A DNA stretch of 64,000 nucleotides from Cyanobium sp. Aljojuca 7A6 (GTDB taxonomy: Bacteria > Cyanobacteriota > Cyanobacteriia > PCC-6307 > Cyanobiaceae), in NCBI RefSeq assembly GCF_024346455.1, contig NZ_JAGQCY010000001.1, positions 124,001 to 188,000 of the forward strand. The letters run 5' to 3'. Under the pieces are notes generated by a model that saw only the letters and a program-made list of their open reading frames with translations, had not been told where the DNA came from and made no database searches. This document shows, in pieces, positions 2,148-7,975 of this stretch (positions are counted from its first letter, which is position 1; every line of letters begins with the position of its first letter). The position numbers were made by a program, and so were the translations under genes.

Positions 2148-2747
2148 ATGGCTCGAACCAACTGGCCATGGACCTTGCTGGCCGGTGTCGCCCTGGCCCT
2201 GGCGCCGATGGCTGCCTGGGCCCATGCCGATCCGCACCCCGGTGGTGGGTTCGTGGCCGGTTTTCTACATCCAATCTGCGGCCTCGATCACGTCGTGGCG
2301 ATGGTGGCCGTGGGCCTGTGGGGTGCGGTGCTCGGCCCGCCGGCCCTGTGGGTGCTGCCGGTGGCGTTCCCGATGGTGATGGCCTTCGGTGGTCTCCTCG
2401 GCCTCCTCGGCGTTCCGATTCCTGGGGTGGAGATCGGCATCGCCGTCTCAGGTCTGGTGATGGGTCTGATGGTGCTGTTCGAGCTCAGGCCACCGCTCGC
2501 TCTGGCGGCGCTGATCGTGTCCGCCTTTGCGGTGTTCCACGGCCATGCCCATGGCGCTGAACTGCCCGCCGGCAGCAATGCCCTCCTCTACAGCCTGGCT
2601 TTTGTGATCGCCACCGGCCTGCTGCACCTGGTTGGGATCCTGCTGGGCGAGACGCGCCGCTGGCACGGTGGGCGGCGTTTCGTGCAGGCGGCCGGCGGGT
2701 GCGTGGCGCTGGTGGGGCTGTGGTTTCTGGAGCAGGCCCTCACATGA
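2148..2747 (+). CDS. hupE: HupE/UreJ-family metal permease
   Basis: This is an inner-membrane permease of the HupE/UreJ family, whose members take up nickel or cobalt. The 199-residue protein has an N-terminal signal-like segment ending WAHADPHPGG, the family motif GFLHPICGLDH (about 36-46), a second His-rich motif FHGHAHGAE, and about six hydrophobic segments. ATG 2148 is preferred to the in-frame ATG 2124 because the signal segment then begins normally with MARTNW. The stop overlaps the next start (ATGA), so the two are very likely co-translated. The His motifs are those expected for Ni/Co coordination; which metal it carries cannot be read from the sequence. Confidence 0.85.
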   Translation: MARTNWPWTLLAGVALALAPMAAWAHADPHPGGGFVAGFLHPICGLDHVVAMVAVGLWGAVLGPPALWVLPVAFPMVMAFGGLLGLLGVPIPGVEIGIAVSGLVMGLMVLFELRPPLALAALIVSAFAVFHGHAHGAELPAGSNALLYSLAFVIATGLLHLVGILLGETRRWHGGRRFVQAAGGCVALVGLWFLEQALT

Positions 2748-3295
2748 CCCTGCCGCTGGCCCATCTGGTCCCCACCGGCCTGGGCCCCTGGGGAGATGGG
2801 ATGGCCCGGCTGTTCCTGGAGCCCACGGAGCTGCTGCTGGTGATCGGCCTTGTGCTGCTGGGTGTACAGGCCCGCCAGCCCTGCAGCGATCTCATGCCCG
2901 TGCTGTTGCCGCTGACCTGGTTGCTCGGGGGCCTGATTGGGATGGGTCTGCTGTCGGAACTGCTGCTAGCACTTCCCTGCACCGCCCTGGTGGCCTTGGT
3001 CGGGTTGCTCGTGGCCCTGGATGTGCGGCTGCGGCCTGTGTTGCTGTTGCCCCTGGCTGCCGCTCTTGCCTTGCTGTTCGCTCTGGTGGCGGGCTCGGCA
3101 CTGGCCGGCCATCCAGGAGCGCTGGCGGCTCTGCTGGGGGAGACCGTGGCCATGGCAGTGGTGAGCACCCTTCTGTGCCAGTCGTTGGCGCCGCCCCACC
3201 CCCGCTGGCGGGCCCTCGGCCTGCGGGTGGGCGGCAGCTGGATCACCGCCGCCGCCCTGCTGATGCTGGGCTGGCTGGTCCGCCATCCCCAGTAG
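2744..3295 (+). CDS. Polytopic membrane protein, probable partner of HupE
   Basis: A 183-residue, very Leu/Ala-rich protein with about five or six membrane segments and almost no polar domains. It begins at ATG 2744, overlapping the hupE stop by four bases, which implies translational coupling. I do not recognise a named family. The opening (HLVPTGLGPW, then FLEPTELLLVIGLVLLG) loosely resembles the second half of longer HupE-like proteins, so it may form a complex with the upstream permease. That role is inferred only from gene order and membrane character. Confidence 0.7.
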   Translation: MTLPLAHLVPTGLGPWGDGMARLFLEPTELLLVIGLVLLGVQARQPCSDLMPVLLPLTWLLGGLIGMGLLSELLLALPCTALVALVGLLVALDVRLRPVLLLPLAAALALLFALVAGSALAGHPGALAALLGETVAMAVVSTLLCQSLAPPHPRWRALGLRVGGSWITAAALLMLGWLVRHPQ

Positions 3296-3304
3296 TGCCC
3301 CAGC

Positions 3305-3335
3305 GTCTCCGCAGCCACACAATGGAGACAACGGT
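3305..3335. promoter_or_regulatory. Second copy of the GTCTCC...GGAGACAACGGT inverted repeat
   Basis: GTCTCC (3305-3310) and GGAGAC (3324-3329) are separated by 13 bases, and the right arm runs into AACGGTTCC, the start of the cobalamin riboswitch. The 13-mer TGGAGACAACGGT is identical to 1943-1955. It could be the outer P1-like stem of the riboswitch, or a protein site shared by both permease genes. Confidence 0.3.
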
Positions 3336-3468
3336 TCCAGCGGGTCACTCCCTGGAGGCAATGAGGAAAGTCCGGTGGGGAGCAGGTTCGTCCTGCGCCG
3401 AGTCCGGCGCTGTCCCGCAGCTGTGATGGGAGCTCCGGTTCCCTCAGTCAGAACGCTCGCCGTGCCCA
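3324..3468 (+). promoter_or_regulatory. Cobalamin (B12) riboswitch
   Basis: The leader of the second permease carries the conserved cobalamin aptamer blocks in order: an opening GGTTCC (about 3333), GAGGAAAGTCCGGTG (about 3363-3377), the B12 box GCTGTCCCGCAGCTGTGA (3409-3426), and a closing AGTCAGAACGCTCGCC (about 3446-3461). The start codon at 3503 lies about 40 bases after the aptamer with no U-run between, so control of translation initiation is more likely than transcription termination. Repression of a cobalt/corrinoid uptake gene by adenosylcobalamin or a related corrinoid would be the expected logic. The GAGGAAAGTCCGG block also occurs in RNase P RNA, but the rest of that RNA is absent. 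Confidence 0.85.
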
Positions 3469-3502
3469 GCCCATCCATCACCGACGCGGACCGGATCCCA
3501 CG

Positions 3503-4108
3503 ATGACCCCATCCTTTTCGGCCAGGTCCCTGGCTCTGTTCGGCGCTGCCTCGGCCCTGGCGCTGCTTCTGGATCAGCCAGCCCAGGCCCACGGCATCGC
3601 CCACGGCGGCATCGCCGCAGGCTTCCTGCATCCGATCACTGGCGCCGACCACCTGCTGCTCCTGCTCGGCGTCGGTGCCGCCGCCAGCCACATCTCCTCC
3701 CAGCTCCTCCTCTGGGCCCTAGCCGGTGCCATTGGTGGTGGCGTGTTCGGGGCGTTGGGCGGCACCTTGCCGGCCCAGGAGTTCCTCGCGGCCCTTGCGA
3801 TCACGGCGGTGGCAGTGCTGGTGCTCCGCAGCCTCCGCTCCAAGCAGAGCCCCAGGCTGGGCGCCTGCTCGGCACTGGTGGCCGCAGCCGTGGCGGTGCA
3901 CGCCATGCTCCATGGCCTGGAGGCGCCGGCCGATTCTTCCGCCGCGCTCTGGTGGCTGGGGGCTTTCAGCGGCTCGGTGCTGGTGAGCGGCGGTAGCTTC
4001 CTGCTGCTGCGGCGCCTGCCTGTGGCCTGGACCCGTGGCGTCTGCCTGCTGCTCGCCCTCTGTGGCGGCGTGGTGGCCTTGGGGCCGATCGGGTTGCTGG
4101 TGCGCTGA
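3503..4108 (+). CDS. HupE/UreJ-type permease under cobalamin riboswitch, probable cobalt transporter
   Basis: A 201-residue membrane protein with a signal-like N terminus ending QPAQAHG, the family motif GFLHPITGADHLL (about 41-53), a second His site VHAMLHGLE, and about six to seven membrane segments. The family transports nickel or cobalt. A cobalamin riboswitch directly upstream argues for cobalt, because the cell would stop import when B12 is plentiful. It differs clearly from the HupE at 2148, which has the longer FHGHAHG motif, so the two probably differ in metal or control. It is followed by an unrelated acetyltransferase. Confidence 0.85.
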   Translation: MTPSFSARSLALFGAASALALLLDQPAQAHGIAHGGIAAGFLHPITGADHLLLLLGVGAAASHISSQLLLWALAGAIGGGVFGALGGTLPAQEFLAALAITAVAVLVLRSLRSKQSPRLGACSALVAAAVAVHAMLHGLEAPADSSAALWWLGAFSGSVLVSGGSFLLLRRLPVAWTRGVCLLLALCGGVVALGPIGLLVR

Positions 4109-5696: not shown

Positions 5697-6078
5697 CGAA
5701 GTCGCAGATGGGCCTGCTATCGCGGTGATCGATGGTCGGTTGCAGTGCCCGCGCTCGCTTGTAGGTTGCGCCCTGCAACCCCGACTCGTCACTGTCGTAG
5801 TTGCCGAGCAGATCCCATCGCAGCTGTTCGCCCGTCCAGTAGTCGCGTCCACCGCAGTCAGCAATTGCGGCATGAACAGCTGCCTTGGCCTCACTGACCG
5901 AATAGTGGCCCCCACGTTGTTCGTCACGGCGGGCAAGTCCCTGAGCCTTTCCGCGCAGCCAGTTGTTGTAGGCAGTTGGAGTCAGGTGCTCGGCCACCCA
6001 CGGCGGTGGCTGGTACTTGTGGCGGGTAATGACGCCTGGCAAGTCTGGTGTCACTGGTCGGATAACTCGAGCGGTCAT
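5602..6078 (-). CDS. HNH-nuclease-like protein of unknown role
   Basis: A 158-residue protein starting MTARVIRPVTPDLPG; the frame is open further upstream, but the upstream part is not protein-like. The C-terminal half has the spacing of an HNH-type beta-beta-alpha-metal fold: CGGRDYWTGEQLRWDLLG (CxxxxYxTGE), then PTIDHRDS with the central Asp-His, then FVICAWRTNDAKHDMS with the Asn and Lys of the N-x-x-K helix. The expected role is DNA cutting, but no phage or restriction partner is next to it. Codon use is less GC-biased than in the neighbours, which supports recent arrival. Assignment is by motif only. Confidence 0.6.
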   Translation of the reverse strand: MTARVIRPVTPDLPGVITRHKYQPPPWVAEHLTPTAYNNWLRGKAQGLARRDEQRGGHYSVSEAKAAVHAAIADCGGRDYWTGEQLRWDLLGNYDSDESGLQGATYKRARALQPTIDHRDSRPICDFVICAWRTNDAKHDMSSEELKEFCRLVLEHNP

Positions 6079-6189
6079 GGCCAGGATGCTTTTGGACTGC
6101 TGGCCGCCTCCATGATCACCGCCAAGTGGGGGTAATGACACGGGCCTTTGCCCTACGAATGCCGCTGCTGGTATCCGGCATGGCCCTTC

Positions 6190-6243
6190 TGTCAAGCGAC
6201 ATTGAAAACCGAGCGCTGGCCTAGTTTTCGATGTCGCTTGACA
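6190..6243. repeat. 20-bp near-perfect inverted repeat with 14-base loop
   Basis: The left arm 6190-6209 (begins TGTCAAGCGACA) and right arm 6224-6243 (ends TGTCGCTTGACA) are complementary at 19 of 20 positions, around a 14-base loop. There is no T-run on either side, so it is not an ordinary intrinsic terminator. It lies in the divergent spacer between the HNH-like gene and the PepSY gene. It could be an operator, a small mobile palindrome, or a mobile-element end. Confidence 0.75.
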
Positions 6244-6318
6244 CATCCTGTGACCCATTCTCCGTCGCCACCCCTGGGATTGGAATTCCTAGGATTAATC
6301 GGACTCGATCCGTTGGCG

Positions 6319-6681
6319 ATGGGCTCCCCTTTCTCCCCTGATCCTCAGACCCAACACCCGACCAGGGCTTGGGTCAATTTTTCCTCCATGGTCGCCATCG
6401 CTCTTTCAGCGGCCCTCGGGCTACCGGCCTGGGCCCGTGCGGGCACCACCCTGGATCCGGCACGGATCGTGGCCCAGTCTCCCGCACCCGCCATCACGAT
6501 TCAGCAGGCCATCACCAAAGCCACTGCTGCCGTCCCCGGGGGAAGAGTGATCAAGATGGATCTCGACCGGGAGAAGGGCCGCGTGATCTGGGAGGCCTTG
6601 GTGGAGAGCCCAACGGGCCGATTCGAGATCTATGTGGACGCCACCACCGGACAGATTCTCAAGAAGGAACGCGACTACTGA
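6319..6681 (+). CDS. Secreted PepSY-domain protein
   Basis: A 120-residue exported protein with a single PepSY domain. The signal peptide has its basic residue in PTRAWVNFSS before the hydrophobic run MVAIALSAALGLPAWARA, which favours ATG 6319 over the inner ATG 6388. The PepSY domain fills about 58-120: ITIQQAITKATAAVPG, then RVIWEALVESPTGRFEIYVD and ATTGQILKKERDY. PepSY domains are thought to inhibit or chaperone proteases or to sense peptides at the envelope. The gene stands alone beyond the inverted repeat. Confidence 0.75.
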   Translation: MGSPFSPDPQTQHPTRAWVNFSSMVAIALSAALGLPAWARAGTTLDPARIVAQSPAPAITIQQAITKATAAVPGGRVIKMDLDREKGRVIWEALVESPTGRFEIYVDATTGQILKKERDY

Positions 6682-7080
6682 CGGTACGTCTTACCGGTGT
6701 TGCACGTCTGGCCGGTCCTTTACGCCCGTTGGGTCCGGGGCACCTGGAGCTGAACTCTTGAACGGTGCGATGGACGGCGACGGCGTGACACGCCAGGGAA
6801 GCCAGAGATCCGTCGAGAGTGTTGGAGCAGGGGCCGGATCGTCAGCGCGCTCCTGACGTCTGCCCCGGGGGAGTGTCATCCATCAAAGGGCCTCCGAATC
6901 CGATGCAGCAACGATCGGATGGCCTGCCGGCCAGGGCAATAGGGGTTTATGCCTGAGGGGTTGATGCCGTTGCTGCAGTGGTGGAGCTGGAGCACCTCGG
7001 CACTAGCAACCAAGCCCTGCAGGAGAGAGAGGCACAGGCCAACACCAACGCCGAACCCGGAAGCGATCCAGGATCTGTTG
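6682..7080. other. 399-base spacer without a supported gene
   Basis: The spacer between the PepSY and HD-domain genes has short frames on both strands, none resembling a protein family. The HD gene's frame is open back to 6949 without a domain-like sequence. I see no tRNA, terminator with a T-run, or clear promoter here. Confidence 0.5.
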
Positions 7081-7785
7081 ATGACGAACAAGCCCCCCAC
7101 CCACAGCGAGCGCTACGACGAGGCCCTGCTCTGGACCGCTCAGCTGCACCGCTGCCAGTCCCGCAACGGCAAGCCGGTGCCCTACATCTCCCACCTGATC
7201 GCCGTCAGCGGCCTGGTCTGGGAGGATGGCGGCACGGAAGATCAGGCGATCGCAGGCCTGCTGCACGACGCCATCGAGGATGCGGGCCAGAGCCACACCT
7301 CAATTGCCCAGCGCTTTGGCGAGGAGGTGGCCGCCATCGTGCTCGACTGCACGGACACCGCCGAGGGCCTGACCGGTGCCGGCAAAGAACCCTGGCTGGT
7401 GCGCAAGACCCGTTACGTGGCCGCTCTTGATCACAAGAGTGAGGGCTCGTTGCGGGTGACAGCAGCTGACAAGGCCCACAACGCCCGCGACCAAGTGCTC
7501 GATGCCCGCCGCAATCCTGCCAGCTGGGATCGCTTCAAGGCGGGGCTCGACGGCACCGCCTGGTACCTACTGCGCATCCACCAGAGCCTCAATCACCGGC
7601 TGCCCAACAGCCGCTCCAACGAACTGCTCGGTGAGGCCGTGAACGAGATCCTCGCCAGTGAGGCCTACGGGCACCTGGTGCCATCCGGGATTGCCCCGGC
7701 GGTGTGGGCGGCGGGGTACCTGGAGCGACCGGAGACGCACCGGCGCGGCTCAACGGCCGGCGGATCGAGCAGCGGCGCTGCCTGA
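7081..7785 (+). CDS. Stand-alone HD-domain hydrolase, RelA/SpoT-hydrolase-like
   Basis: The 234-residue protein resembles the metal-dependent HD domain that removes pyrophosphate from (p)ppGpp in SpoT and MESH1-like enzymes. Visible are PYISHLIAVSGLVWEDGG (first metal His), GLLHDAIEDAG (HDxxED) and ADKAHNARDQV, corresponding to the Asp-x-x-x-Asn motif of the family. No synthetase domain follows, so it would be a small alarmone hydrolase or another nucleotide hydrolase. ATG 7081 was chosen because MTNKPPTHSERYDEALLW begins directly at the domain. The last 25 residues are low-complexity Gly/Ser. Confidence 0.75.
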   Translation: MTNKPPTHSERYDEALLWTAQLHRCQSRNGKPVPYISHLIAVSGLVWEDGGTEDQAIAGLLHDAIEDAGQSHTSIAQRFGEEVAAIVLDCTDTAEGLTGAGKEPWLVRKTRYVAALDHKSEGSLRVTAADKAHNARDQVLDARRNPASWDRFKAGLDGTAWYLLRIHQSLNHRLPNSRSNELLGEAVNEILASEAYGHLVPSGIAPAVWAAGYLERPETHRRGSTAGGSSSGAA

Positions 7786-7975
7786 CAGACGCCTAAGGCC
7801 CCGATCTACGCGCCACCGTTGCTCGTTGGCCCCGGCGGCACATTGCTCCCCCATGGGCCCGCGCACCGATGGACAGTCCCGTTCATGGCGTCGAACGCCG
7901 TCAGCCTGCTTCCAACCGGGGCAGCGTGACAGCTCCTGCCCCAGCGAGGCGGCGACATTCGGCCACGGGAGTGGC

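Follow-up and report, generated by a model that had tools for sequence, protein, structure and literature searches.

The proteins of the HupE/UreJ family were introduced as nickel permeases (PMC4284471, PMC2667541, PMC7689651), and HPxxGxDH is given as their signature (PMC7689651). In marine cyanobacteria, HupE proteins under B12 switches are described as probable cobalt transporters, and hupE mutants of Synechocystis are reported to be rescued by cobalt or methionine (PMC4284471, PMC7689651). It is also reported that the Synechocystis HupE cannot compensate for the loss of the nickel importer NikKLMQO (PMC5904137). Predicted nickel and cobalt branches of HupE have been separated (PMC2667541), hupE has been noted downstream of B12 elements in metagenomes (PMC2211319), and in S. 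elongatus a cobalamin switch is placed ahead of a putative cobalt transporter (PMC3219970). As for the switch itself, the kissing pair between the loops L5 and L13 is described as central to ligand sensing, and in E. coli btuB and in env8HyCbl it is described as governing the hairpin at the ribosome-binding site (PMC9600662, PMC10653944). The consensus printed for L5 is UCCCG (PMC10653944). It has been postulated that one cobalamin switch in Synechococcus sp. PCC 7002 works as a terminator, and most cyanobacteria are reported to be without genes for the lower ligand of cobalamin and are discussed as mainly pseudocobalamin makers (PMC10878165). B12-switched HupE cobalt importers of cyanobacteria are therefore already published and are not new here; what is added here is the counts over a genus, an operon variant, and a link to DUF3721 genes. 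The literature search returned no paper joining hupE, B12 and Cyanobium.

How does the present locus compare with these systems? We analysed a stretch of 64 kb, called the window, which contains a HupE gene with a cobalamin riboswitch in its leader. Judging by the named relatives of the protein behind this switch, the source is probably a cyanobacterium of the Cyanobium/Synechococcus type. The combination of a HupE/UreJ permease and a leader switch is shared with the B12-switched hupE genes described in marine cyanobacteria and in Synechocystis, while the genome studied here has two switched paralogues (named Co1 and Co2 below) plus one more copy in the window; this likeness is drawn from the published descriptions. 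Synpcc7942_1373, a putative cobalt transporter of Synechococcus elongatus, resembles the locus by description in that a cobalamin switch is part of its long 5' leader. The HupE/UreJ nickel permeases that proteobacteria encode in their hydrogenase and urease clusters belong to the same Pfam family, but the switched protein is a much lower-scoring member (54 bits, versus 183 for its neighbour of the H type) and is without the HGHAHG motif. Our main reading is that a cobalamin riboswitch represses a HupE-type cobalt permease in this locus, and we put its probability at roughly 0.85.

The riboswitch and its downstream hairpin

A cmscan search of the entire 64-kb window against Rfam, at the Rfam cut-offs, gave one cobalamin match. 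It is located on the plus strand at 3315-3478, covers the full RF00174 model (1-189), and scores 40.5 bits (E 8.8e-7) against a gathering score of 31.5; a whole-genome search found it again at the same site. The preliminary description, made from the letters alone, had put a cobalamin riboswitch at 3324-3468 with all conserved B12 aptamer blocks present. The covariance match encloses that interval, and the core that marks RF00174, i.e., GGGAA-type and CCCGCAACUGU-type segments and an AGYCAG-type B12 box, is complete in the alignments, where the segments of the window copy are GAGGAAAG, CCCGCAGCUGUGA and CAGUCAGAAC. The spacing of 40 bases to the start codon has to be corrected, as 34 nt separate 3468 from the ATG at 3503; the same ATG is 24 nt 3' of the end of the RF00174 model. 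At the 5' end of the aptamer the hexamer CACAAT (3318-3323, plus strand) is weakly suggested as a possible -10 element. A/T-rich hexamers resembling it can be seen by eye at a roughly equal position in relatives, and a strict sigma-70 scan found no promoter at the window leader. No strong Shine-Dalgarno sequence was seen by eye before ATG 3503, and the GCGGA of L13 sits 12 nt from this ATG.

What would the aptamer act on? The loop L5, with the letters UCCCG, lies at 3413-3417 on the plus strand as the proposed partner of L13, and TGTCCCGC is identical in 34 of 34 aligned switches. Further downstream, the expression-platform hairpin P13/L13, CCGACGCGGACCGG, is found at 3481-3494 on the same strand and ends 8 nt 5' of the ATG. 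In the window copy its loop CGCGGA complements L5 with one base bulged. The alignment consists of 34 switches selected at less than 87% alike, namely 32 from HupE leaders, one from a CbiM leader and one from another leader. Across it the L5 segment UGUCCCGC is invariant (34/34), and UCCCG in L5 and CGnGG in L13 are constant in all 34; in 32 of the 34 the two loops match by five complementary pairs and a single bulge. The hairpin before the start codon reads CCGGCG(A/C)GGACCGG in the majority of the aligned HupE leaders and UCUGCGAGG(U/C)ACAGA in the CbiM leader and in the one other non-HupE leader. RNAalifold pairs the L5 segment with the segment of the pre-start hairpin, and we take this helix to be the program's rendering of the known L5-L13 kissing pair. 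Beyond the alignment, a sequence equivalent to P13/L13 is present in 74 of 74 extracted switches; these are 74 of the 75 listed in the genus survey described below, the omitted one (G019:C146) being at a contig end.

Does covariation speak for these pairs? In the 34-switch alignment, 95.8% of the P13 and kissing-pair cells are paired, and their letters are almost invariant. One pair is altered on both sides, a count that 63 of 500 shuffles also reach, and when the pairing is shifted by one column there are two double-changed pairs, above the one of the proposed pairing. The 500 shuffles give no covariation support to P13 and the kissing pair.

The window leader has no terminator-like site and does have an L5-complementary downstream hairpin near the start codon, which is the combination of the translational type. 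From the L5 and L13 features, the lack of a terminator-like site and the published kissing-pair mechanism, we infer translational repression by a corrinoid. Published work does not assign this mode to all such switches, given the terminator postulated for PCC 7002. Compared with E. coli btuB and env8HyCbl, the window copy has in common the aptamer core, the L5 letters UCCCG, the L5-complementary hairpin and the lack of a terminator-like site. Its kissing pair has a one-base bulge, as has been reported for env8HyCbl too (PMC10653944), and it differs by a mismatch in P13; its corrinoid ligand and its response are predicted. The predicted scheme would work as follows. Ample corrinoid cofactor would be bound by the aptamer, and in the bound aptamer L5 (UCCCG) would pair with L13 (CGCGGA) of the short hairpin 8 nt before the ATG. 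This pairing would keep the hairpin closed and so block the start of the ribosome. When corrinoid is scarce, the hairpin would open, the permease would be synthesised and cobalt, its putative cargo, would enter the cell, where it would supply corrin synthesis (CobN) and methionine synthase (MetH).

Switched HupE genes across the genus

The gene behind the switch, at 3503-4108 on the plus strand, had been assigned to the HupE family, and the assignment holds: the protein of 201 residues (3503-4105) matches PF04955 with 54.1 bits against a cut-off of 23, and carries the HPxxGxDH signature as HPITGADH. By PF04955, this motif and the tree described below, it is a HupE/UreJ permease of the Co2 type and a predicted cobalt importer. 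What is the evidence for cobalt? The genome encodes the B12-dependent methionine synthase MetH (1418 bits) and the cobaltochelatase CobN (1618 bits), and should therefore need cobalt. Profile searches for CbiM and NicO gave no match in this genome, which leaves the HupE proteins as the sole candidates for cobalt import among the families searched. The earlier argument that a B12 switch points to cobalt remains the best reading; it draws on the regulation, on MetH and CobN, on the absence of CbiM and NicO, and on the literature. Taking these together, the HupE at 3503 is most likely a cobalt importer.

The switch in the window is not the only one in its genome. Three cobalamin switches are listed there, all three of which precede HupE-type genes, and PF04955 has four matches. 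On contig C31 a divergent pair of HupE genes was found, each with its own switch; the two switches stand back to back with 49 bases between them. One of the two HupE proteins shares 61% identity with the window protein. The pair occupies G000:C31:174968-176569 (L008), and its two switches had been overlooked in the preliminary description. The genus set comprises 42 genomes, the present one included, and a divergent Co1/Co2 pair with back-to-back switches occurs in 16 of them (the present genome and 15 others).

Over the genus set, 75 cobalamin matches are listed in 41 of the 42 genomes, 73 of them above the cut-off, and PF04955 has 97 matches, also in 41 of 42. The RF00174 search of 40 genomes used stricter filters, so that weak switches can be missed, as in the example of G034_C98. 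A PF04955 match on the same strand follows 69 of the 75 listed switches at a distance of 75-153 nt, and two more (in G002 and G012) precede the cobalt-importer gene CbiM. One switch, which at 27.9 bits stays below the cut-off, is followed in G014 by a window-type HupE with an internal deletion, and two are near contig ends (G019:C146 runs into the end, and G039:C214 is 230 bases from it). The last one, at G024:C89:10954-11099 (L167), is the top-scoring switch of the genus set (64.3 bits), and neither HupE nor CbiM is assigned downstream of it; its leader carries the L13 type of the CbiM leaders. With 71 of 75 switches ahead of HupE or CbiM, the use of the switch in this genus is almost confined to genes of the cobalt-permease type. 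This makes the switch a practical mark for separating the probable cobalt types of HupE from the unswitched type.

A tree of the PF04955 proteins leads to the same types. It was built from 91 rows of at least 140 residues, the shorter fragments being excluded from the tree and from the list of H genes; one excluded fragment, G035:C24, is a broken H-type gene. The tree splits into four groups, named H, Co1, Co2 and MID. The Co1 clade, which is the type of the minus-strand gene on C31, has 40 rows, 39 of them with a listed switch; in the fortieth an aptamer core is visible upstream though unlisted. The Co2 clade, which is the type of the gene at 3503, has 36 rows, 29 with a switch; in the other seven the core CCCGCARCUGU is absent from the 420 upstream bases, and one of these retains the P13 string. 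By comparison, the H clade, i.e., the type of the neighbouring gene at 2148, has 12 rows from 11 genomes with a switch of their own in 0 of 12, and the MID clade has three rows with 0 of 3. Support is 99/99 for H, 99/99 for Co1 and 80/91 for Co2, where the bootstrap is unsettled and long branches meet. Among 33 named cyanobacterial loci (L068-L100), 17 of which also belong to the genus set, an aptamer core lies upstream of the Co2-type gene in 33 of 33.

The unswitched neighbour and MID

The neighbouring HupE/UreJ permease of the H type is encoded at 2148-2747 on the plus strand (with a start at 2124 or 2148) and matches PF04955 with 182.6 bits. It had been noted as having no clear aptamer, and a permissive cmscan of 1850-2200 agrees, giving no cobalamin match up to E 10. 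It had also been credited with a different His motif. This is half right: HPxxGxDH is kept in both proteins (HPICGLDH at 2148, HPITGADH at 3503), and the difference is in a second motif, FHGHAHG versus VHAMLHG. The H protein has no sequence relative among solved structures up to E 0.1. An exact 13-base repeat, TGGAGACAACGGT, occurs before the H gene at 1943-1955 and again at the start of the riboswitch at 3323-3335; among 3000 single-base shuffles, 8 gave an equally long match. The copy at 1943 also occurs in G025 and G040, two near-identical relatives. A degenerate aptamer before 2148 is rejected by the same permissive search and by the sequence after the repeat, which by eye is unlike an aptamer.

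Between the two HupE genes there is a further gene, missed in the preliminary description. It encodes a degenerate HupE-like membrane protein, MID, at 2744-3295 on the plus strand, and its start overlaps the stop of the H gene. Open reading frames were chosen here by a codon-position filter; picking by length is mostly spurious in GC-rich DNA. MID scores 16.3 bits with PF04955, under the cut-off of 23, and is without the HPxxGxDH motif, and a profile comparison with the H family gives a probability of 92 (E 5.9e-7). In the cyanobacterial H loci MID follows H except in L183, a fragment at a contig end. Among the H-like matches outside the cyanobacteria (L101-L120), MID was found only at L104 (Rhizobium), at E 1e-6.

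What is the arrangement in other genomes? In the 33 named loci, H and MID stand before the switch and Co2 in 8 (in one of which, L073, H is split in two pieces) and behind Co2 in 2. A divergent Co1 is found in 13, and the remaining 10, among them some short loci, show neither. The two loci with H and MID behind Co2 are L078 (Synechococcus sp. J7-Johnson) and L088 (CS-1325). Their order is switch, Co2, H, MID (5819-7831), with the H start codon 5 nt past the Co2 stop and a cobalamin match ahead of 55.9 and 55.7 bits, respectively. Given this spacing and the switch ahead, H and MID are probably in a switch-led operon there. The two loci are closely alike and are therefore counted as about one event.

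Which metal, then, is carried by H and MID? One answer is that H, MID and Co2 all serve cobalt, H and MID being extra parts of a cobalt cluster whose clustering with the switch is functional. We hold this at slightly under even odds. In the window, as in the 8 loci just counted, H and MID immediately precede the switch and Co2, and in the two others they follow Co2 directly. Three further switches, those of G024:C105, G026:C53 and G021:C93, are directly preceded by a legible 3' end of MID where no full MID is present; the remnant in G021:C93 is near a contig end. But elsewhere H and MID are apart from any HupE switch (e.g., G025, G040 and G024:C20), and the relatives of the H type are best known as nickel permeases.

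The other answer is a division of labour, in which H with MID would import nickel for urease and hydrogenase, and the Co2 protein at 3503 would import cobalt. That the locus might separate nickel from cobalt uptake was already suggested in the preliminary description. One part of the suggestion stands, as the H type is unswitched throughout the H clade; the other part meets the switch-led order in L078 and L088, where H and MID follow a switched gene. We regard the division as tentative and lean against it. In its favour, the H type is 42-63% identical to the proteobacterial proteins found, and a relative from Hydrogenophaga (L103, 44% identical) adjoins an ORF that reads by eye as urease alpha. 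The present genome has a urease and a [NiFe] hydrogenase (motifs RICGIC and DPCLSC) and should therefore need nickel, and no match to CbiM/NikM or NicO was found in it. The genus as a whole points the other way. No nickel enzyme was seen by eye beside H in four genus stretches (L151, L155, L157 and L188). A full-length H type, CbiM/NikM and NicO are all missing from 26 of 35 urease-bearing genomes, in which nickel must therefore take another route, and likewise from 26 of 35 hydrogenase-bearing ones. G003 has both urease and hydrogenase, yet no PF04955, CbiM or NicO match and no listed cobalamin switch. These urease genomes and G003 exclude the H type as a nickel route for the genus in general, and its co-occurrence with urease, hydrogenase, CbiM and NicO does not support such a general role. 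Ni-SOD had no match in the 42 genomes of the set, but the controls of this search were equally silent, so that the zero carries no information.

State of the window copy and the DUF3721 genes

There is a further question, whether the switch in the window still works as its relatives do. The window copy has an A at position 3484, in P13, in place of the G of the other HupE leaders. This change is unique among the 74 extracted switches and turns the innermost P13 pair into a mismatch. When the 44-nt segment of the window is folded alone, P13 does not form, while it does form in the short segments of the C31 paralogue and of G038; none of the three segments folds better than its own shuffles. With the mismatch and the failure of P13 to fold alone, the window copy may be leaky. 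A rival reading makes it a redundant third B12-switched HupE in decay, with reduced control. This is unlikely in our judgement, but there are signs of it, the P13 mismatch among them. The genome also bears the divergent switched pair on C31, and three genomes of the genus set have both loci, in two of which (G014 and G038) the window-type gene is damaged. In G014 the gene is internally deleted with only its ends left (L154, around 6222), and in G038 AAG replaces the start codon (L150, around 3066). Against decay, the window gene is full length, its identity to the C31 paralogue is the 61% given above, and its aptamer core is intact; moreover G014 and G038 are draft assemblies. Judged from these three draft genomes, the locus may hold a third and redundant copy under looser control. 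Repression of a cobalt permease by the cobalamin riboswitch remains the preferred reading for the locus.

Another family accompanies the H genes. Pairs of genes with DUF3721 (PF12518) often stand with the H/MID cluster, one gene being short and the other having GLTT repeats and a His-rich stretch; the motif in the pair is CxGAHxMGxxWMPCxxH. DUF3721 was found in 14 of 18 H loci. Among 40 cyanobacterial loci that lack a full-length H and are 6 kb or longer it was found in 5, and Fisher's test gives p 3e-6 (for 5/39), which is a guide only, the loci being related. The loci counted were also picked by their HupE genes, and some overlap in pairs (L169/L091, L097/L099 and L157/L158); the 40 include L100 and omit L076 and L093 as repeats of L150 and L149. 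DUF3721 adjoins H and MID in nine H loci (L068, L069, L071, L077, L078, L088, L150, L151 and L152), lies some 2-4 kb off in four (L073, L149, L157 and L158), and is left as a remnant in L154; the four H loci without a DUF3721 match are L072, L155, L187 and L188. As for the five loci outside the H group, a Co2 gene of the window type is present in L074, L164 and L166 (here with a DUF3721 remnant), and a broken HupE in L184 and L185. No mention of DUF3721 was found in the literature searched.

These associations raise the speculative picture, which we consider improbable as a whole, of a cluster for acquiring cobalt (or nickel and cobalt) that would be new to description in cyanobacteria of the Cyanobium/Synechococcus type. 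It would be made of the DUF3721 pair, the H and MID permease and the switched Co2, with the switch marking one of its ends. In such a cluster the two Cys/His proteins with DUF3721 would bind metal outside the cell membrane and pass it to the H and MID permease, alongside the B12-switched Co2. If so, the unswitched HupE would be a cobalt component and not a separate nickel importer. The clustered DUF3721 genes offer a testable context for a family of unknown function.

In the present genome the DUF3721 pair is at C1:123261-123985, directly left of the window (L199). It is separated from the HupE genes by the gene of an SLH/OprB porin at 235-1863 on the minus strand (NCBIfam iron uptake porin, 275 bits). 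In the window itself, before the H gene, what may be a remnant of a DUF3721 gene end is seen by its motif at 2061-2090 on the plus strand (WMPCSEHPH followed by a stop); relatives have DUF3721 genes at this place. The broken HupE genes in loci with DUF3721 pairs are an H fragment in L184, from G035, and Co2 fragments in L185, from G029.
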